NCBI GenBank assembly: GCA_946886065.1
Contig: CAMPHU010000075.1
Location: forward strand, 1-19,468
Length of the DNA: 19,468 nt
Source of the DNA: an uncultured Massilia sp.
GTDB lineage: Bacteria > Pseudomonadota > Gammaproteobacteria > Burkholderiales > Burkholderiaceae
Reading direction: 5' to 3'
Below the pieces are notes generated by a model. It made no database searches. It was not told where the DNA came from and worked only from the letters and a program-made list of their open reading frames with translations. How positions within the stretch are numbered: the stretch's first letter is position 1; every line of letters starts with the position of its first letter. Below, in pieces: positions 1-8,623 of this stretch. The position numbers and the translations under genes were made by a program.

Positions 1-2140
1 GGTTCGAGCTTGATGCCGATGTCCGCCCAGGTGCGCGCCGCCAGCACGTCGCCGCCGGGAAGCGGGTCGCGGCGCGGGTCTTGATGTCGGCGTAGACGCG
101 CTCGCGCGCCGGCGTGCCGCGCACCACGCGGCGCAGGTGCTCGCGGGTGCCGTCCAGGAGACTGAGCTTGAGCGCCACCTGGGGCCAGGCCGGGTCCTGG
201 ATCTGGGCCAGGTGGAAGGTCAGCAGGCGCTCCGCGCTGCGGATCATCTGCTCGCGGGGCATGGCGCCGCGGTTCGCCTCCAGCCAGTTGCGCCAGTAGC
301 GCGTCAGCTGGTCGTTCAGGTGGCCCGGCTCCGCGTGGCTTTTATCGCCCAGCATCAGGTAGGTCTTGAGGGCGTTGTAGGCGTCGCCGACGTTGGTTGG
401 CGAGACGTCCTGATAAGGCCGGCCGGGTTTTGCCGCCGGCGTGCCGGCCTGGCCCGCCGGGTCGAGCTGGCCGTCGCTGGCATTGACTTCCTGGAGCATG
501 GTTTCCAGCGCCGCCGTCACCGGTTCGACCATCACCGCGCGCACGCCGGCGAAGTATTCGTCGCGCAGCTTGCGTTCCAGCTCCCCGCCCTGGTACAGGC
601 CGAAGGCGAGCGCCCAGGGCTGGTCGTTCCCGTAGCGCTCCAGCTGCTCGATGCGGTCCTGCAGGATGTCGAGCGCTTCCAGGCGCGCCTGCAGGTCGAT
701 CCGGCCGGCCTGCAGCTTCCTGACCTTGTCCAGGTCGGACTGCACGTTGGCCACCAGCTGGCGGTTGCCCATAAAGGACCAGGACCAGGCGCCCATGGCC
801 GCGCCCAGCAGGACCGTGGCGCCGAAGAAGGCCGCGATCGTCCAGCGGCCGGCGGCGGGATTGGTGTAGCGCTTGACCAGCTCCCTGTCGGCGAAGATCA
901 CCTTGCGGAACAGCTCCAGCAGGAAGTAGCCGGATTGCTCTTCCACCTCGCCGGCTTGCTGCTCGCGCAGCGCCAGGTCGAAGCGGCTGGCCACGCGCTT
1001 GCTCGACAGGTCCTGCACCCTGCCTTCCTGGAGCGCGCTGGTGAGGTAGAAGCCCCGGAACACCGGCTTGAACTGGTAGGTATTCTCCTCGAACAGCGTG
1101 GCCAGGAAGGCGCGCAGCGGGGTCTTGATGGCGGCAAATTCCAGCGGGAAGGTGAACACGCCGGGGCGCATGGCGCTCCCGCCCTTGCCCAATGCGCTGC
1201 CCATGCTGGCCAGGCTCATTTCCTTGAGGCCGTCGTGCAGCTCGTCGAAATGCTCGTCGAAGAAGCCCAGCACGTCCTGCGGCGCGCTGCGCCGGTTGTA
1301 GCGCAGGGTCGCCCCCCAGATGCGGTCGCGTTCCGAGCGCTCGGTGCAGTGGAAGAAGTCGGTGAATCCGGCGATCAGGTCGGCCTTGGTGAAGACCACG
1401 TACACCGGCGCATGCACGCCGAGCCGCTCGGTCAGTTCCTGCACCCGGGTGCGCAGGTTCTTCGCCAGCTCGTGCGAGGCCTTGGTGGGCCCGGCCACGA
1501 GTTCGGCCACGCTGACGGCGATCAGGATGCCGTTGATCGGCGCCCGGCTGCGGTGCTTCCGCAGGAGGTCGAGGAAGCTGAACCACTCGGCGCGGTCGTC
1601 CTCCTGCACCGAATAGCGCCCCGCCGTGTCGAGCAGGATGCCGTCGGTGGTGAAGAACCAGTCGCAGTTGCGCGTTCCCCCCACGCCCTGCAAGGCCTTG
1701 TTGCCGGGGATCGGAAAGCTCAGGCCGGAATGGACGATGGCGCTGCTCTTGCCGGCCGCCGGGTTCCCGATGATCATGTACCAGGGCAGCTCGTAGAGCG
1801 CCGCGGCGCCGCGGGTCAGGCCGAGCTTGGAGGTCTTGATGGTGGAGATGGCCTCGCCCAGGTTCTTGCGCAGGACCGCTAGCTCGTCCTTGCCGGTATC
1901 CGTACCGGACTCGCCCCGGGCGATCGCCTCCCCGAGCCGCGCCGCCGCCCTGCCGCGCAGCCAGCGCCGCACGGCCCACCAGGTGCCCCAGCCGGCCAGC
2001 AAGGCGAGGCCGGCAATCGCGGCCCAGATCATGCCGGCGCCGAGCACTTCGGCGCCGATCACCAGGATTGCCGCCAGCGCGGCCACACCAGTCGCGACAA
2101 GCACACGCCTGTCGGTCAGAAATTGCCAGAGTCGTGCCAT
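1..2140 (-). CDS. tssM: Type VI secretion system membrane subunit TssM (IcmF/ImpL family), 3'-truncated by window edge, probable frameshift near 55
   Basis: TssM is the large inner-membrane subunit of the T6SS trans-envelope complex (with TssL and TssJ). The start at 2140 gives MARLWQFLTDRR. Two membrane segments lie at about residues 13-60. A cytoplasmic GTPase-like domain follows: Walker A GNPAAGKSS (K131), DTAG (171-174) and TKAD (251-254). A third membrane segment lies at about 431-458 (AAFFGATVLLGAAMGAWSW), after which the periplasmic region begins. About 700 residues are visible; family members usually have 1100-1300. No strong Shine-Dalgarno precedes the ATG, but the next in-frame stop upstream is only about 35 bases away. 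From about position 58 to the left, the frame used so far becomes Arg/Ser-rich with A/T third positions. The frame with codons starting one base over reads GDVLAARTWADIGIKLE with almost pure G/C third positions. The gene is therefore probably frameshifted here, by nature or by error. The M15 peptidase gene lies 123 bp upstream on the same strand. Confidence 0.93.
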   Translation of the reverse strand, partial: MARLWQFLTDRRVLVATGVAALAAILVIGAEVLGAGMIWAAIAGLALLAGWGTWWAVRRWLRGRAAARLGEAIARGESGTDTGKDELAVLRKNLGEAISTIKTSKLGLTRGAAALYELPWYMIIGNPAAGKSSAIVHSGLSFPIPGNKALQGVGGTRNCDWFFTTDGILLDTAGRYSVQEDDRAEWFSFLDLLRKHRSRAPINGILIAVSVAELVAGPTKASHELAKNLRTRVQELTERLGVHAPVYVVFTKADLIAGFTDFFHCTERSERDRIWGATLRYNRRSAPQDVLGFFDEHFDELHDGLKEMSLASMGSALGKGGSAMRPGVFTFPLEFAAIKTPLRAFLATLFEENTYQFKPVFRGFYLTSALQEGRVQDLSSKRVASRFDLALREQQAGEVEEQSGYFLLELFRKVIFADRELVKRYTNPAAGRWTIAAFFGATVLLGAAMGAWSWSFMGNRQLVANVQSDLDKVRKLQAGRIDLQARLEALDILQDRIEQLERYGNDQPWALAFGLYQGGELERKLRDEYFAGVRAVMVEPVTAALETMLQEVNASDGQLDPAGQAGTPAAKPGRPYQDVSPTNVGDAYNALKTYLMLGDKSHAEPGHLNDQLTRYWRNWLEANRGAMPREQMIRSAERLLTFHLAQIQDPAWPQVALKLSLLDGTREHLRRVVRGTPARERVYADIKTRAATRFPAATCWRRAPGRTSASSSN

Positions 2141-2243
2141 GACGGGATCAGGTTGAGGGTTGCGAAATAAGTCCTACAGGAAATGCTCGCACGCCTGCGC
2201 CGGCCTGCACTTGAGACTGCGCAACTGTCAGGGAAGACCATGC

Positions 2244-2262
2244 CGCCCGGGTGTCCCGGGCG
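2244..2262. repeat. Perfect 8-bp hairpin between the M15 peptidase gene and tssM
   Basis: CGCCCGGG (2244-2251), loop TGT, CCCGGGCG (2255-2262). It begins one base after the peptidase stop codon. No T-run follows on either strand, so it is not a classic intrinsic terminator. It could protect the upstream mRNA end or reduce read-through into tssM. Confidence 0.6.
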
Positions 2263-2263
2263 T

Positions 2264-3106
2264 TCAAGGGCGCATCACGCCGCGCATGCGCAGCTCGATG
2301 TGGCCAAAATCCATCATGGTCCAGCGTCCGCCCCAGGTCAGCCCCAGCGACTCGGCCACCTCGCCGTACAGCTGGTAGCCGCGCATGGCCCACGGATCCT
2401 TTTCCGAGATCACCAGTTTCCCCTCGCGCAGGAAGGCGCAGTCGGCGGCCAGGCCGTACTGGTGCCAGCTCTGGAAGGCGCGCGCATTGGTGACGTGGCC
2501 GCCGGCCTTGGCCAGCTGGTCCTGGCGCGCCGGGCTGCGGTAGCCTTCCAGCAGGGCCATGTCGTAGCCGTGCTTTTCCTTCATGATCTTGAAAGCCAGC
2601 AGCAGGCGCTGGCTGAAATCCGGGTGCAGCAAGCCCCAGTTGCGGCTGGCGTCGGCCAGCATCGGGCGCACCAGTTCCACTTCGCGCGTGGTGAAGACCA
2701 GCGGCGGCAAGGCCACCGGCGGCACCAGGTGCTCGCCCTTGAGCAGGGCCGCCACCTGGGCGTCCGGCAGCGCCTCGGCGCTCTCGTAGACCGGCAGCAT
2801 GGCCGGGTTGCTCAGGGCCAGGGCCAGCAGCGGCGGGATCAGCACCAGCGGCGTGCCGATCGCGAACGCCACTTGATGCAGCTTGACGAAGCCGAGCAGC
2901 CGCTCCCGGAAGTCCGACGCCATGCTCGCGCGCAGCATGCCGGCATGGCGGTCCCCGGCCTGCCGCCATGCCTGGCTGCGCTGCTCCACACGGCTGCGCA
3001 GGCCGAGCAGGCCGCGCGCGATCGCACTGCGCCCGCTTGGGAACAGCACAAGCCAGATCACGGCCGACGCCAGGCAAACGTACAGAAGGGCGACAAAGAT
3101 CAGCAT
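2264..3106 (-). CDS. Membrane-anchored M15-family metallopeptidase (peptidoglycan peptidase), T6SS-associated
   Basis: 280 aa. The likely role is zinc-dependent cleavage of peptidoglycan peptides in the periplasm. Residues 1-24 form a membrane anchor (MLIFVALLYVCLASAVIWLV). A basic stretch follows, then a second hydrophobic stretch at about 80-103 (FAIGTPLVLIPPLLALAL). The C-terminal half carries the M15/VanY signature: EGYRSPARQ, then SWHQYGLAAD with H215 and D222 as metal ligands, and DFGHIEL with H269 as third ligand and D266 preceding it. The start has AGGGAG just upstream. The gene precedes tssM on the same strand. M15_4-type enzymes occur in T6SS clusters of Acinetobacter (TagX), where they are thought to open the wall for the apparatus; that role here is inferred from context. 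A housekeeping carboxypeptidase or an endolysin-like enzyme is the alternative. Confidence 0.85.
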   Translation of the reverse strand: MLIFVALLYVCLASAVIWLVLFPSGRSAIARGLLGLRSRVEQRSQAWRQAGDRHAGMLRASMASDFRERLLGFVKLHQVAFAIGTPLVLIPPLLALALSNPAMLPVYESAEALPDAQVAALLKGEHLVPPVALPPLVFTTREVELVRPMLADASRNWGLLHPDFSQRLLLAFKIMKEKHGYDMALLEGYRSPARQDQLAKAGGHVTNARAFQSWHQYGLAADCAFLREGKLVISEKDPWAMRGYQLYGEVAESLGLTWGGRWTMMDFGHIELRMRGVMRP

Positions 3107-3165
3107 CGAGACTCCCTAAATTGTTTCTAATCAGAACCAGGAAAGCCCATCTTAGGAGTACTGCC

Positions 3166-3861
3166 GTGCGTCCTTCAGACGAACATCAAGCCACCTCCAC
3201 GCGCCCCAACCTGATGTCCTCTTCCAGGTCCGGCGCCAGCCGCCACGGCGAAGACAGCATCCTGGCCAAGCTCGAACGCGGCCCCGCGCGCCGCCACGGC
3301 CGACGCTCCGTGCTGCGCAGGATCGGCTACGGCGCGGGCGTGCTGGTCGCGGTCGCGCTCACGGCCACCCTGGCCTGGCTGGCCGCCGACAACGGCAAGC
3401 CGCCGCCGACGCTGGCCCAGGCAGCCGTGCCCGTCACGCCGCCCGCGATGGTGACGGCGCCGCCGCCACGGCAAGGGGGCGCCGCCGCCCTGATCGACGA
3501 ACCGCCTCCACCGCCGCCGCCCTTGCGTCTGCTGGAAGGACCACGGATGGCCGCACCGGCGCCCGAGCCCGCCCCGTCCGCCGTGCCGGACCGGCGCCCC
3601 GCGCCGCACCCCGTGGCCGCGGCAGCCGTCCGGCCCAGGCCCTTGGCGGCCACCACCCGCGCCGAGCGGCCGGCCGCCAGGCCGCGGCCGCAAGCCACGC
3701 GCCCCGCTTCCCGCCCCGCCGCGCGGCCCGCGCGCGCCGCGACGCCCGCGAAGCAGGCCGAGCCGCCGGTCGACAGCGACGTTGCCCTGATCTCGGCCGT
3801 CATCGTGCACGCCAACGGCCACGCGGATGCGCGCGAGGAGGAAGCCCGCGTCCGGGATTGA
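3166..3861 (+). CDS. Proline/alanine/arginine-rich single-pass membrane protein, function unknown
   Basis: 231 aa from a GTG start at 3166, chosen because a clean AGGAG (3154-3158) lies 7 bases upstream. Residues 1-50 are polar and basic (SILAKLERGP, RRHGRRSVLRR). One transmembrane helix follows at about 56-76 (YGAGVLVAVALTATLAWLA). The rest is a low-complexity Pro/Ala/Arg region with a run of seven prolines (DEPPPPPPPLRL). A short, more ordered tail, DSDVALISAVIVHANGH, comes near the C-terminus. By the positive-inside rule the N-terminus is cytoplasmic and the proline-rich part spans the periplasm. The layout recalls TonB- or GspB-like linkers, but no TonB C-terminal domain is visible. It is divergent from the M15 peptidase gene with a 59-bp gap. 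I do not recognise a family. Confidence 0.75.
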   Translation: MRPSDEHQATSTRPNLMSSSRSGASRHGEDSILAKLERGPARRHGRRSVLRRIGYGAGVLVAVALTATLAWLAADNGKPPPTLAQAAVPVTPPAMVTAPPPRQGGAAALIDEPPPPPPPLRLLEGPRMAAPAPEPAPSAVPDRRPAPHPVAAAAVRPRPLAATTRAERPAARPRPQATRPASRPAARPARAATPAKQAEPPVDSDVALISAVIVHANGHADAREEEARVRD

Positions 3862-3938
3862 GCTTGCCGCGCGTGGTAAAAAGCCCGCGCTGGTGTCTTG
3901 ACAGGGCGAAACTGCTGGGTGTTCGCCGCGCGGGACGT

Positions 3939-3944
3939 TATACT
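3939..3944 (+). promoter_or_regulatory. Probable -10 element of the fan1-helicase operon
   Basis: TATACT matches the sigma-70 -10 consensus in five of six positions and lies 28 bases before the fan1 ATG. The -35 region at about 3915-3921 is a poor match. It overlaps the LexA box, as expected for a repressed promoter. Confidence 0.55.
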
Positions 3945-3960
3945 GTACATAAGCACAGTA
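3941..3960. promoter_or_regulatory. LexA-binding SOS box upstream of fan1
   Basis: TACTGTACATAAGCACAGTA contains the exact CTGT-N8-ACAG core and both outer TA pairs of the E. coli LexA consensus. LexA of beta- and gammaproteobacteria recognises this motif. It overlaps the -10 and sits 12 bases before the fan1 start codon, so bound LexA should block RNA polymerase. A ribosome binding site, AGGA (3960-3963), follows directly. This predicts induction of the operon by DNA damage. Confidence 0.88.
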
Positions 3961-3972
3961 GGACGTTCCGTC

Positions 3973-5625
3973 ATGATCAGGGTTCTGGAAAACGAGTTTT
4001 ATTATCTGGACAATTTCCAGCGCGTCCTCGACTGGATCGGGGAACGCTATGGCGATTTGCTCGACGAAGCCGAGCACGCCTTCCTGGCCGCCTTCCCCCT
4101 GCTTCCGCGCAATGCGCGCGCCCTGTTCGTGCGCATGGTCATGCGCAAGGGCGAGCTGTTCCGCGCCAGTAAGCTGAACTATGCCGAGATCGGCTGCCCG
4201 GTCGAGGCTGCCGGTCACCTGCTCGGCACCGGCTGGGTCGTGGCCGATCCCGAGATCTCCCTCGACGAGTTGTTCGACCTGCTGTCCAAGCCCGAGCTCC
4301 TGGAAGCCTTCGGGCCGCGGCTGCGCGTGAAAAACGCGCGCAAGGCCGAGCAACTGGAAGCCCTGCGCGAGGAATGCGCCGACAGCCTGCCGTTTTCGCA
4401 CTGGTACACGCACTGCAGCGACCTGGCGCTGCGCATCCTGGTCAAGCCCCTGTGCGACCGCCTGCGCCTGATCTTCTTCGGCAACCTGCACCAGGACTGG
4501 ACCGAATTCGTGCTGTCCGACCTTGGCCTGTTCCGCTACGAGCAGGTCGAGTTCTCGCCCGATTCGCGCGGATTCCGCCGGCGCCGCGACGTCGACCACT
4601 ATCTGCAGCTGCACGCCTGCAAGGAGCGCTTCGCCGCCGGCGAGCCGCTCGACGACGTGGTGGAGGACTTGCCCTGGCACGCCTTCGACAACGACTGGCT
4701 GGACAGCCGCCGCGAAAAGCTGCTGTTCCAGGTCGGCCAGCACTACGAAAAGCTGAAGGACTGGGACAAGGCCTACGGCGTCTATGCGCGCTGCCGTTTC
4801 CCGGGTGCGCGTGGCCGCGCCATCCGTGTGCTGGAAAAACACGAGCGCTTCGACCTGGCCTACGAGCTCCTCACCAGCGCCCAGGCCGCGCCCGAAAGCG
4901 AGGCCGAGCGCCAGCAGCTGGCGCGCATCGCGCCGCGTCTGGCGCGCAAGCTGGGCCACGCCAGGCTTGCGCAGGTTAATCGGCGCAACCAGTTGTTCGA
5001 GCGCATCGACCTGTGCCTGCCCCTACCCACGGAGGATTGGTGGGTCGAAGGCGTGGTACGCGACCACCTGGCCGCCGAGGAAGCCCCGGTGTTCTACGTC
5101 GAGAATGCGCTCGCCAACTCCCTGTTCGGCCTGCTGTGCTGGCGCGCCGTGTTCGCCGCGATCCCGGGGGCCTTCTTCCACCCCTTCCACCGCGGCCCGG
5201 CCGACCTGCACAGCCTCGACTTCCACCAGCGCCGCGCGCCCGAGTTCGCGGCCTGCCTGGCCGAGCTGGACGACGGCCGCTACCAGCACACGATCCGCCG
5301 CAACTACGCCGAAAAATCCGGGATCAGCACGCCCTTCGTGTACTGGGACGCCCTGACGCCGGAACTCCTCGACCTGGCCCTGGCCTGCATCCCGGCCACC
5401 CACCTGCGCCGCTGGTGCGAGCGCATCCTGGCCGACGTCAAGGCCAACCGCAGCGGCTTTCCGGACCTGATCCAGTTCTGGCCGCGCGAAGGCCGCTACA
5501 CGATGATCGAAGTAAAGGGCCCGGGCGACCGCCTGCAGGACAACCAGCTGCGCTGGATCGAGTACTGCGCGGCCCACGACATGCCTGTGGCGGTGTGCTA
5601 CCTGCAATGGGAGCAGGCAGCTTGA
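3973..5625 (+). CDS. fan1: FAN1-type VRR-NUC domain structure-specific nuclease
   Basis: 550 aa, close to the length of characterised bacterial FAN1 proteins (Pseudomonas aeruginosa FAN1, about 560). FAN1 cuts 5' flaps and unhooks DNA interstrand cross-links. The C-terminal VRR-NUC domain carries the PD-(D/E)XK site: GFPDLIQFW with D498, then YTMIEVKGPGDRLQDNQ with E513 and K515. The N-terminal half (from ENEFYYLDNFQRVLDWI) is the helical DNA-binding region. The middle, about 230-330, has TPR-like helices (HYEKLKDWDKAYGVYARCRF). The ATG is preceded by AGGA at 9 bases; the LexA box and -10 end just upstream, leaving a leader of about 20 nt. The stop codon overlaps the start of the helicase gene, so the two are co-translated. 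The domain assignment is seen in the sequence; SOS control is inferred from the operator. Confidence 0.95.
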   Translation: MIRVLENEFYYLDNFQRVLDWIGERYGDLLDEAEHAFLAAFPLLPRNARALFVRMVMRKGELFRASKLNYAEIGCPVEAAGHLLGTGWVVADPEISLDELFDLLSKPELLEAFGPRLRVKNARKAEQLEALREECADSLPFSHWYTHCSDLALRILVKPLCDRLRLIFFGNLHQDWTEFVLSDLGLFRYEQVEFSPDSRGFRRRRDVDHYLQLHACKERFAAGEPLDDVVEDLPWHAFDNDWLDSRREKLLFQVGQHYEKLKDWDKAYGVYARCRFPGARGRAIRVLEKHERFDLAYELLTSAQAAPESEAERQQLARIAPRLARKLGHARLAQVNRRNQLFERIDLCLPLPTEDWWVEGVVRDHLAAEEAPVFYVENALANSLFGLLCWRAVFAAIPGAFFHPFHRGPADLHSLDFHQRRAPEFAACLAELDDGRYQHTIRRNYAEKSGISTPFVYWDALTPELLDLALACIPATHLRRWCERILADVKANRSGFPDLIQFWPREGRYTMIEVKGPGDRLQDNQLRWIEYCAAHDMPVAVCYLQWEQAA

Positions 5626-7898
5626 CCGCTGTGGCCAGCTACACGGTCGCCGTGCGCGCCCTGTGCGAGTTCACCGCCAAGCAGGGCGACCTCGACCTGC
5701 GCTTCACGCCCTCCCCCAGCGCCCAGGAAGGCATCGCCGGACACGCCGTGGTCGCGTCCCGCCGCGGCGGCAACTACCGCAGCGAAGTCGCGCTGTCCGG
5801 CCAGTGGAAGGCGCTGACGGTGCGCGGCCGCGCCGACGGCTACGATCCGGACGAAAACCTGATCGAAGAGGTCAAGACCCATCGCGGCAAGGCCGATTCC
5901 ATCCCCGACAACCACCGCCACCTGCACTGGGCCCAGCTGCGCGTCTACGGCCACCTGATGTGCGTGGAGCTGGGCATGGAGCGCGTCAACCTGGCCCTGG
6001 TCTACTACGACATCGGCAGCGGCCATGAAACCGTGCTGCGCGAAAGCCGCGATGCGGGCTGGCTGCGCGAGCACTTCGAGCAGCTGTGCGAGCGCTTTTC
6101 CAGCTGGGCCGCCAGCGAAGCCGCGCACCGCGCCGCGCGCGACGCGGCCCTGAGTGAACTGCGCTTCCCCCATGCCGGCTTCCGTCCCGGCCAGCGCCAG
6201 CTGGCCGAGGGCATCTACCGCGCCAACGCCGGCAAGCGCTGCCTGCTGGCCCAGGCGCCCACCGGCATCGGCAAGACCGTGGGCAGCCTGTTTCCGGTGC
6301 TGAAGGCCATGCCCCAGCAAGGCATCGACAAGGCTTTCTTCCTGGCCGCCAAGACGCCGGGGCGCCAGCTGGCCTTGCATGCCGCCGCCAGCCTCGGCGC
6401 CGGTGCGAGCCCGGCCGCGGGTTGGTTGCCGCTGCGGGTGCTGGAACTGACCGCGCGCGACAAGCTGTGCGAGCATCCGGACAAGGCCTGCCACGGCGAG
6501 TCCTGCCCGCTGGCCAAGGGCTTCTACGACCGCCTGCCGGCCGCCCGCGCCGATGCGGCCACCGTCCCGGTGCTGGACCAGCAGGGCCTGCGCGAGGTGG
6601 CGGCCCGGCACGAAGTCTGCCCCTACTACCTGGGCAGCGAGATGGCGCGCTGGTCGGACCTGATGGTGGGCGACTACAACTATTACTTCGACGGCGGCGC
6701 GATGCTGTACGCGCTGGGCCTGAACAACGGCTGGAAAGTCAGCGTGCTGGTCGACGAGGCCCACAACATGGTGTCGCGCGCACGTTCCATGTACACGGCC
6801 GAGATCAGCCGCGAGCTGCTGCGCAGCGCCCGCGCCGGCGCCCCGCCGGTACTCAAGAAGGCCCTGGAAAAGGTCGGCCGCGCCTGGACCGACGTCGACC
6901 GCGGCGCCGCCGCGCCCTACCAGGTGCTGGACGGCGTGCCCGAGAAGCTGGTCAACGCCCTGCAGAACGCCGGGAGCGCGGTCAACGACTACCTGGCCGA
7001 GTTCCCGGGGCCGCTCGATCCGGACCTGCAGCGCTTTCACTTCGACGCCCTCGCCTTCGTGCGCCTGGCCGAATCCTTCGGCGAGCATTCGCTGTGCGAC
7101 CTGGCGCGCGAAGGGGTCCGGGACTCGACGATCTGCATCCGCAACGTGGTGCCCGCGCCCTTCCTCGGTCCGCGTTTCGCCTTCGCCCACTCGACCACCC
7201 TGTTCTCGGCCACGCTCAGCCCCTGGCATTATTTCTGCGACCTGCTCGGCATGCCGGCCGACACCGCCTGGGTCGACGTCGAATCGCCCTTCCAGGCGCA
7301 CCAGCTGCAGGTGCACGTCGCCGGCACGATCTCCACGCGCTACCAGCACCGCAAGGCCTCGGTCGGCCCGATCGCCGGGCTGATCGCGCGCCAGTACCGC
7401 GAACAGGCGGGCAACTACCTGGCCTTCTTCAGCAGTTTCGACTACCTCGACCAGGTCGCGGCCGAGCTGGCGGAGCACTACCCGGATGTCCCGTCCTGGC
7501 GCCAGGAGCGGCGCATGAGCGAAGCCGAACGCCAGGCCTTCCTCGACCGCTTCGCGCCCGGCGGCGCCGGTGTGGGTTTCGCCGTGCTGGGCGGCGCCTT
7601 CGGCGAAGGGGTGGACCTGCCGGGAGACCGCCTGATCGGGGCCTTCGTCGCCACCCTCGGGCTGCCGCAGGTGAACCCGGTCAACGAGCAGCTGCGCGAA
7701 CGCATGCAGAAGCTGTTCGGGGCCGGCTACGACTACACCTATCTCTATCCCGGCATCCAGAAGGTGGTACAGGCGGCCGGCCGCGTGATCCGCACCGAAA
7801 GCGACCGCGGCGTGGTGTGGCTGATCGACGACCGCTTCGCCCAGCCGGGCATCCGTGCGCTGATGCCGGCCTGGTGGGAACTCGATGCGCCGGCCTAG
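5622..7898 (+). CDS. XPD/DinG-type Fe-S DNA helicase with N-terminal RecB/Cas4-like PD-(D/E)XK nuclease domain
   Basis: 758 aa from the TTG at 5622, which overlaps the fan1 stop as TTGA and has GGGAG 8 bases upstream; the GTG at 5631 is the alternative start. The N-terminal domain shows a nuclease core: D72, then E83-V-K85, and a RecB-type QxxxY (Q105, Y109). The helicase has Walker A QAPTGIGKT (211-219), four cysteines C283, C290, C295 and C333 placed like the XPD/DinG 4Fe-4S cluster, DEAH (378-381), a motif near SATLSPW, and a final QAAGRVIRTESDRG. XPD-family helicases move 5' to 3' on single-stranded DNA; the fused nuclease suggests coupled unwinding and trimming. Its operon partner is FAN1, pointing to cross-link or fork repair. 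The 3' end overlaps the convergent lytTR gene by four bases. Confidence 0.93.
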   Translation: MTAVASYTVAVRALCEFTAKQGDLDLRFTPSPSAQEGIAGHAVVASRRGGNYRSEVALSGQWKALTVRGRADGYDPDENLIEEVKTHRGKADSIPDNHRHLHWAQLRVYGHLMCVELGMERVNLALVYYDIGSGHETVLRESRDAGWLREHFEQLCERFSSWAASEAAHRAARDAALSELRFPHAGFRPGQRQLAEGIYRANAGKRCLLAQAPTGIGKTVGSLFPVLKAMPQQGIDKAFFLAAKTPGRQLALHAAASLGAGASPAAGWLPLRVLELTARDKLCEHPDKACHGESCPLAKGFYDRLPAARADAATVPVLDQQGLREVAARHEVCPYYLGSEMARWSDLMVGDYNYYFDGGAMLYALGLNNGWKVSVLVDEAHNMVSRARSMYTAEISRELLRSARAGAPPVLKKALEKVGRAWTDVDRGAAAPYQVLDGVPEKLVNALQNAGSAVNDYLAEFPGPLDPDLQRFHFDALAFVRLAESFGEHSLCDLAREGVRDSTICIRNVVPAPFLGPRFAFAHSTTLFSATLSPWHYFCDLLGMPADTAWVDVESPFQAHQLQVHVAGTISTRYQHRKASVGPIAGLIARQYREQAGNYLAFFSSFDYLDQVAAELAEHYPDVPSWRQERRMSEAERQAFLDRFAPGGAGVGFAVLGGAFGEGVDLPGDRLIGAFVATLGLPQVNPVNEQLRERMQKLFGAGYDYTYLYPGIQKVVQAAGRVIRTESDRGVVWLIDDRFAQPGIRALMPAWWELDAPA

Positions 7899-8623
7899 CC
7901 CAGGCGTTCGCGCACTTTCGCATAGCTGCCGCGGCTGATCGGCAGGCGCGCGCCGCTGTGCAGCACGGCGCAGTGGCTGTCCTTGCTGACCGCTTCGATG
8001 CGCGCGATGGCGCCGACCTTGACGATGTAGGAACGGTGGATGCGCAGGAAAGCGCCGGGTTCGAGCTGGCTTTCCAGCTCCGACAGGCGCTGGTTCTTCA
8101 GCCAGGTTTTCCCGCCCGCCGCGATCTGCACGTAATCGTCCTGGGCCTCGATGTAGTCGATCTCCGCGGCCGGCACCACGTGCACACGCGCACCGTCGCG
8201 GATCAGGATGCGCTCGAGCGGCGCGTGGCGCTGCGCCGCCTCGGCCACGACCGCCTCGATCCGGGCCGGCTGCGGCGCGCGCGAGCGGGCATGCGCCAGT
8301 GCCTGGGCCAGGCGCTCGCGCGAGAACGGCTTGAGCAGGTAGTCGATGGCGTGCACCTCGAAGGCCCGCAGCGCGAACTGGTCGTAGGCCGTGGCGAAGA
8401 TGTAGTGCGGCTTGCTGCCTGCCAGCTCCACCACTTCGAAGCCGTCCAGCTTGGGCATCTGGATGTCGAGGAAGACCAGGTCCGGATCGTGCTCCGCGAT
8501 CGCCTTGACGGCCTCGAAGCCGTTCGCGCATTCGCCCACGATCTCGATGTCCGCATGCCCGGCCAGGAATTCGCGCAGCAGCATGCGCGCCAGCTGTTCA
8601 TCGTCGACGATCAGTACCCGCAT
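7895..8623 (-). CDS. LytTR-family response regulator (AlgR/LytR type)
   Basis: 242 aa. The receiver domain (1 to about 120) has the acidic pocket D7-D8, the phospho-acceptor D53 in DLVFLDIQMPKLDG, the ATAYD switch region and the LLKPF lysine. The LytTR DNA-binding domain follows at about 138-240 (RILIRDGARVHVVPAAEIDYIEAQDDYVQI, then FLRIHRSYIVKV and ISRGSYAKVRERL). It is a DNA-binding transcription regulator phosphorylated by the sensor kinase encoded just upstream, whose stop lies 14 bases before this start. GGGGAGA about 10 bases upstream is the ribosome binding site. It is the last gene of a four-gene operon. The stop codons of this gene and of the helicase lie on the same CTAG. Likely DNA targets are the direct repeats upstream of the operon. 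Confidence 0.95.
   Translation of the reverse strand: MRVLIVDDEQLARMLLREFLAGHADIEIVGECANGFEAVKAIAEHDPDLVFLDIQMPKLDGFEVVELAGSKPHYIFATAYDQFALRAFEVHAIDYLLKPFSRERLAQALAHARSRAPQPARIEAVVAEAAQRHAPLERILIRDGARVHVVPAAEIDYIEAQDDYVQIAAGGKTWLKNQRLSELESQLEPGAFLRIHRSYIVKVGAIARIEAVSKDSHCAVLHSGARLPISRGSYAKVRERLG

Follow-up and report, generated by a model that had tools for sequence, protein, structure and literature searches.

FAN1, a nuclease, is best known from cross-link repair in humans, and little is known of how bacteria deploy it. In a 19,468-nucleotide stretch of DNA from an uncultured Massilia sp. (the window), a fan1 gene stands directly behind a candidate SOS box, which raises the question of whether this box is a LexA operator through which the gene and its helicase partner respond to DNA damage. 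The candidate operator, TACTGTACATAAGCACAGTA, lies at 3941..3960 and was annotated, without a strand, on the basis of its sequence and its conservation in relatives. As the preliminary description had claimed, it contains the exact CTGT-N8-ACAG core with TA on both sides and lies 12 nt 5' of the fan1 ATG (3973-3975). We consider it very probable that TACTGTACATAAGCACAGTA is a LexA operator and that fan1 and the helicase gene would form an operon that is repressed by LexA and derepressed upon damage.

The earlier naming of the two genes, a FAN1 nuclease followed by an XPD/Rad3-type helicase, was right. The fan1 gene (3973..5625, + strand) encodes a FAN1-family nuclease of 550 amino acids with FAN1_HTH, FANC_SAP and VRR_NUC domains, all above the Pfam cut-offs, and residues 5-547 align with the solved homologues 4r89 and 5y7g. 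D498, E513 and K515, which we take to be the PD-(D/E)XK catalytic residues of FAN1, are invariant in 24 aligned sequences, and the strict pattern G-x-PD...EVKGPxD is present in the fan1 loci of 141 of 146 relatives. The structure listing names 4r89 only 'Uncharacterized protein'; we assume that it is PA1865 of Pseudomonas aeruginosa. The title of a published reference attributes cross-link unhooking to the bacterial FAN1 homologue. A phage origin of fan1 was considered and rejected, there being no match among 50,697 phage-collection records.

The helicase gene (5607..7898, + strand) starts with an ATG at 5607, inside the 3' end of fan1, and encodes 763 amino acids with DEAD_2 and Helicase_C_2 domains, both above cut-off. 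A solved relative is 9kqh, a 'DNA 5'-3' helicase' (residues 14-757), and its top NCBIfam model is rad3, at 111 bits and under the cut-off of 246.95. The NCBIfam equivalog scores for DinG (72.4 of 598 bits) and YoaA (83.7 of 680) fall far under their cut-offs; we therefore rejected a DinG/YoaA identity, and with it the argument that the operon is under SOS control because its helicase is dinG. Four cysteines (C288, C295, C300 and C338), presumably the Fe-S cysteines of an XPD-type helicase, are invariant in 24 sequences. The first ~190 amino acids (window 5607-6176) have no Pfam match up to an E value of 1. Within this part D77, E88-x-K90 and Q110-xxx-Y114, which we take for a Cas4/RecB-type nuclease motif, are invariant in the 24 sequences, and the segment is probably a nuclease module fused to the XPD-type helicase. 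The gene pair is conserved: the helicase gene lies no more than 160 nt behind fan1, and on the same strand, in all 80 named loci (the best 80 of 582 relatives) and in 63 of 66 loci of the family sample.

On the - strand, a LytTR response regulator gene (7895-8623) is convergent with the helicase gene, and the ORF upstream of it resembles, by eye, its histidine kinase. At the other end (2-3106, - strand), a 713-aa ORF that in our reading resembles TssM/IcmF of type VI secretion runs off the window beside an M15 peptidase gene (2264-3106).

Could the box be a chance palindrome in a promoter, with no regulatory role? The exact TACTGT-N8-ACAGTA form occurs once in the window, and none of 200 shuffles of the window contained any match. 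The bare core CTGT-N8-ACAG likewise occurs once, against 0.15 expected, and is not improbable in a window of 19 kb because 27 of the 200 shuffles contained at least one, a figure that speaks for chance as far as the core is concerned. The case for the box is thus made by its TA flanks, by where it lies and most of all by its conservation at orthologous fan1 genes, rather than by the bare core.

For the conservation we compared two sets. The named relatives, Massilia and its neighbours in the Oxalobacteraceae, are the best 80 of 582 by protein similarity (the closest an 87% match among the matches listed) and may overlap the second set, a sample of 145 genomes of the family, of which 66 have fan1. 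The nearest genome, G001, shares 21% of sampled words with the window, and its FAN1 is 94% identical. Two of the 66 fan1 genomes (L057 and L080) have too little upstream sequence, so that family counts refer to 64 genomes for 250 nt and 63 for 520 nt. The preliminary description had suggested scanning fan1 upstream regions in related genomes for the motif, whose absence from them would have refuted its reading, and the motif is there: an exact CTGT-N8-ACAG core stands within 250 nt upstream of fan1 in all 80 named loci (best 80 of 582), in 46/64 family genomes and in 4/4 Burkholderia records. Within 520 nt, 50/63 family genomes have the exact core, 55/63 CTGT-N9-CAG and 58/63 CTG-N10-CAG, although the looser forms can be chance at such length.

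The control patterns behaved quite differently. When all 256 four-base palindromes with an eight-base gap were counted in the same way, the runner-up reached 6/64 in the family sample and 6/80 in the named set (best 80 of 582). With gaps of 0-16 in these 80 loci, the next patterns were mostly parts of the same box (ACTG-N10 in 68/80, TGTA-N6 in 38, TACT-N12 in 24 and ATAC-N1 in 22), and others after them reached up to 18/80. The remaining, mostly coding, locus sequence held four exact cores in 218,551 bases for the family set and two in 901,617 bases for the named set (best 80 of 582). With the window included, the distance from the first base of the box to the start codon is 27 to 67 nt in 80 of 81 rows and 160 nt in one. 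Dereplication to less than 70% identity over the box and 40 nt on each side left 38 of the 81 rows, in which the four core-flanking bases carry a mean of 1.05 bits, the inner eight 1.17 and the far flanks 0.25, the eight core columns being fixed by construction. This conservation is strong evidence for the box. Given these controls at orthologous fan1 genes, the presence of the core in 80/80 named relatives and its recurrence in other groups, we rejected chance, to which we attach almost no probability.

The box is not universal in the family. An exact core is lacking before fan1 in 18/64 family genomes within 250 nt and in 13/63 within 520 nt. Four of these 18 (G019, G145, G120 and G038) carry the CTGT-N9-CAG form, and in another four (G025, G059, G010 and G061) the best site has one mismatch and lies at -199, -133, -73 and -267, respectively; in G129, G081, G116, G104 and G082 nothing near fan1 was convincing as a box. 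Some genomes have the exact box at a greater distance, namely four of the g15 group (L064, L066, L070 and L082) at 419-500 nt before fan1 rather than 25-70 nt, and L054 at -348. In the four g15 genomes, box and fan1 may be separated by a small gene or an extended leader. Two genomes were seen to have two exact boxes before fan1, at -236/-58 (L052) and -218/-68 (L069).

We then considered whether the motif at fan1 is the one that LexA reads in this clade. In 14 family genomes, picked mostly for a fan1 without an exact box nearby, lexA itself is preceded, at no more than 300 nt, by the exact core CTGT-N8-ACAG in 14/14; the nine genomes named above with at best a one-mismatch site near fan1 have exact boxes at their own lexA. 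At recA the box is exact in 10/13 of these genomes and reads CTGG-N8-ACAG in 3/13, one genome being without a recA match; in the genus of G001, recA has CTGG-N8-ACAG in 5/6 genomes. Across the genome of G001, 29 exact cores against 23 for a reversed-pattern control are barely an enrichment, so that the bare core by itself means little there too. Its exact cores include sites before lexA, a DinB-type polymerase gene, ruvC and a PHP/DNA_pol3_alpha gene, as well as before a radical-SAM gene and an NAD kinase gene; at several other exact-core sites in G001 no SOS target was recognisable.

The same palindrome might be read by another repressor of the CI/LexA class, with the operon still damage-inducible. 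Among 30 genomes scanned, a second LexA-domain match was found at 62.8-66.7 bits in three (G779, G627 and G731) and weakly in six (G116, G104, G025, G800, G059 and G082), and the P. aeruginosa FAN1 gene PA1865 is placed, in the passages available of PMC12796719, in none of the known regulons of LexA, Prt and Alp. These points could be accommodated by such a repressor, but the box has the sequence of the family's own lexA operators and is met again before fan1 in several groups far from the family, and we regard a reader other than LexA as very unlikely. The same classification agrees with the preliminary description, which knew of no bacterial FAN1 among the standard SOS genes.

If LexA is the reader, the position of the box suggests how it would act. 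A -10-like hexamer, TATACT (3939..3944, + strand), reaches into the box from the left, sharing four bases with it, and a weak -35-like element, TGGGTG (3916..3921, + strand), stands upstream with a 17 bp spacer. A strict scan of 3840-4000 returned no sigma-70 promoter. In relatives, TATACTGT occupies the -10-like place in 58/81 rows (window included) and in 24/38 after dereplication. Counted back from the box core in the 38 rows left after dereplication, C-T-G-G occupies columns -28 to -25, each base at 63-87%, so that the weak -35-like element lies at a conserved place, and T-A-T-A occupies columns -4 to -1 (68-100%). We infer from this geometry that box-bound LexA would stand in the way of RNA polymerase. 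In an undamaged cell, LexA would cover the -10 hexamer together with the likely transcription start, which would hold the fan1-helicase operon down; RecA on single-stranded DNA would lead to LexA self-cleavage and derepress it. FAN1 might then incise or unhook DNA that carries cross-links or flaps, and its helicase partner, probably with an N-terminal nuclease module, might open or process the region.

How much of the expression would depend on this switch is a separate matter. The operator could be real and its control modest: if the promoter leaks, or if transcription running on from the + strand ORF upstream makes fan1 constitutive, the SOS response would add little. This ORF (2968-3861) stops 79 nt before the box, no terminator was detected in 3840-4000, and several family genomes retain fan1 without a clear box. 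Against this, the box is conserved and selection on it is implied. In addition, PMC8526614, citing Murray et al., lists in the passages available eight genes raised by ciprofloxacin in P. aeruginosa PA14 (recA, recX, PA3413, sulA, lexA, PA2288, PA1865 and recN), with a mean induction of ~6-fold for the set. Modest control is compatible with a LexA operator, so that the probabilities of the two are not exclusive; we think it unlikely, though clearly less so than a different repressor.

We extended the search beyond the family, where fan1 was found in 19/369 genomes of the class sample and 55/398 of the phylum sample. The outside-family set comprised 62 fan1 genomes, with the weak matches G866, G623, G781 and G761 left out and two of the 62 having less than 250 nt upstream. 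Within 250 nt before fan1, 10/62 have the exact core and 23/62 the CTGT-N9-CAG form. The distribution is uneven. In the order's two other families (f220 and f108) the exact core is present in 4/4, and the four Burkholderia records combine the exact box with a helicase gene downstream in every case. In family f161 fan1 has the exact core in 3/16 and CTGT-N9-CAG in 15/16. One Pseudomonas-like genus of f161 has fan1 in 25/25 genomes, with CTGT-N9-CAG at -25 to -48 in 25/25; the fan1 of G903, which is in two frames, yielded two loci. The CTGT-N9-CAG form, with its CCAG right half, is seen at lexA too in f161. In one f161 genome, G898, the FAN1 sequence is almost the same as 4r89 (1138.8 bits over 541 residues) and the fan1 box is exact, ATCTGTATGCATGAACAGTA; judging from this near-identity, f161 would be the Pseudomonadaceae.

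Exact cores were absent from the fan1 upstream regions of f172 (0/8), f204 (0/6) and f207 (0/3), and the remaining groups were scattered. In three of the eight f172 genomes (L124, L128 and L129) we saw a common ATGGAT-N2-ATGAACAG ~30 nt before fan1, two mismatches from the SOS core; the lexA sites of f172 are likewise divergent. Two Vibrio records (2 of 5 listed) are both without box and without helicase, and one Bradyrhizobium record (1 of 2 listed) has no box.

A second gene architecture appears in Pseudoalteromonas, where both records considered (2 of 3 listed) have the exact core. In L330 (3501-5666), FAN1 is fused to an RNase_T (DnaQ-type) exonuclease domain by Pfam and preceded by an SOS box, and no helicase gene was found within the 8.6 kb locus. 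The 30 best matches to this fusion (f140, L340-L369) are ORFs of similar length, and from their length we presume the same fusion. Among these best 30 matches the exact core is present in 15/30 and a one-mismatch core in 13 of the other 15; the next palindrome reaches four. From these comparisons of sequence, we lean, by a modest margin over the opposite view, towards fan1 being a recurrent SOS gene in several beta- and gamma-proteobacterial groups. LexA would have kept control of it in two FAN1 architectures, one with a nuclease-like XPD helicase next to FAN1 and one in which FAN1 and a DnaQ-type exonuclease are fused, and the gene would provide a damage-inducible route of cross-link repair. 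Our confidence in this wider reading is slightly lowered because only 10/62 genomes outside the family have the exact core.

One of the closest known systems is P. aeruginosa FAN1 itself (PA1865; 4r89, 5y7g). It is a homologue along nearly its whole length, and the near-identical gene of G898 has an exact box. According to the passages of PMC12796719, PA1865 is induced by UV-C and ciprofloxacin and repressed by hydrogen peroxide, and P. aeruginosa has 15 known SOS genes; the difference from our locus is that PA1865 is described there as lying outside the known LexA regulon. A recurrent SOS fan1, if true, would account for the damage induction of PA1865, which has so far been unassigned.

The fan1 locus shares with the LexA/RecA regulon of beta- and gamma-proteobacteria the CTGT-N8-ACAG operator, its place over a -10-like hexamer, the repair genes downstream and the motif at lexA. 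It differs in that fan1 is not among the members named in the literature passages searched, none of which names fan1 as a LexA target, and the LexA site at fan1 is a prediction from sequence. SOS control of a nuclease of this kind has a parallel in MmcB of Caulobacter, which we take to be a different protein from FAN1. Like FAN1, MmcB is a PD-(D/E)XK nuclease with a proposed cross-link role and with SOS control (for fan1 predicted); the passages available describe it as SOS-regulated, serving in mitomycin C resistance and proposed to act on interstrand cross-links (PMC9578287). The helicase may have been noticed before: a 2012 study (PMC3323433) predicts, in the part available, that 'Helicase c2' genes of beta-proteobacteria have LexA sites. 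In four Burkholderia records fan1 is followed by a relative of the Helicase_C_2 protein of the window. A text search of PMC3323433 for 'vrr-nuc' and 'nuclease' returned nothing.

In conclusion, our results support an extension of the SOS regulon by a gene pair that is conserved in the Oxalobacteraceae and present in some other families, rather than a new kind of system. FAN1 probably belongs to the SOS damage response of bacteria, though this has been little noted, and a conserved LexA operator would place fan1 among the damage-inducible repair genes. It would also make testable whether, besides nucleotide excision repair, an inducible step for interstrand cross-links is part of the SOS response.
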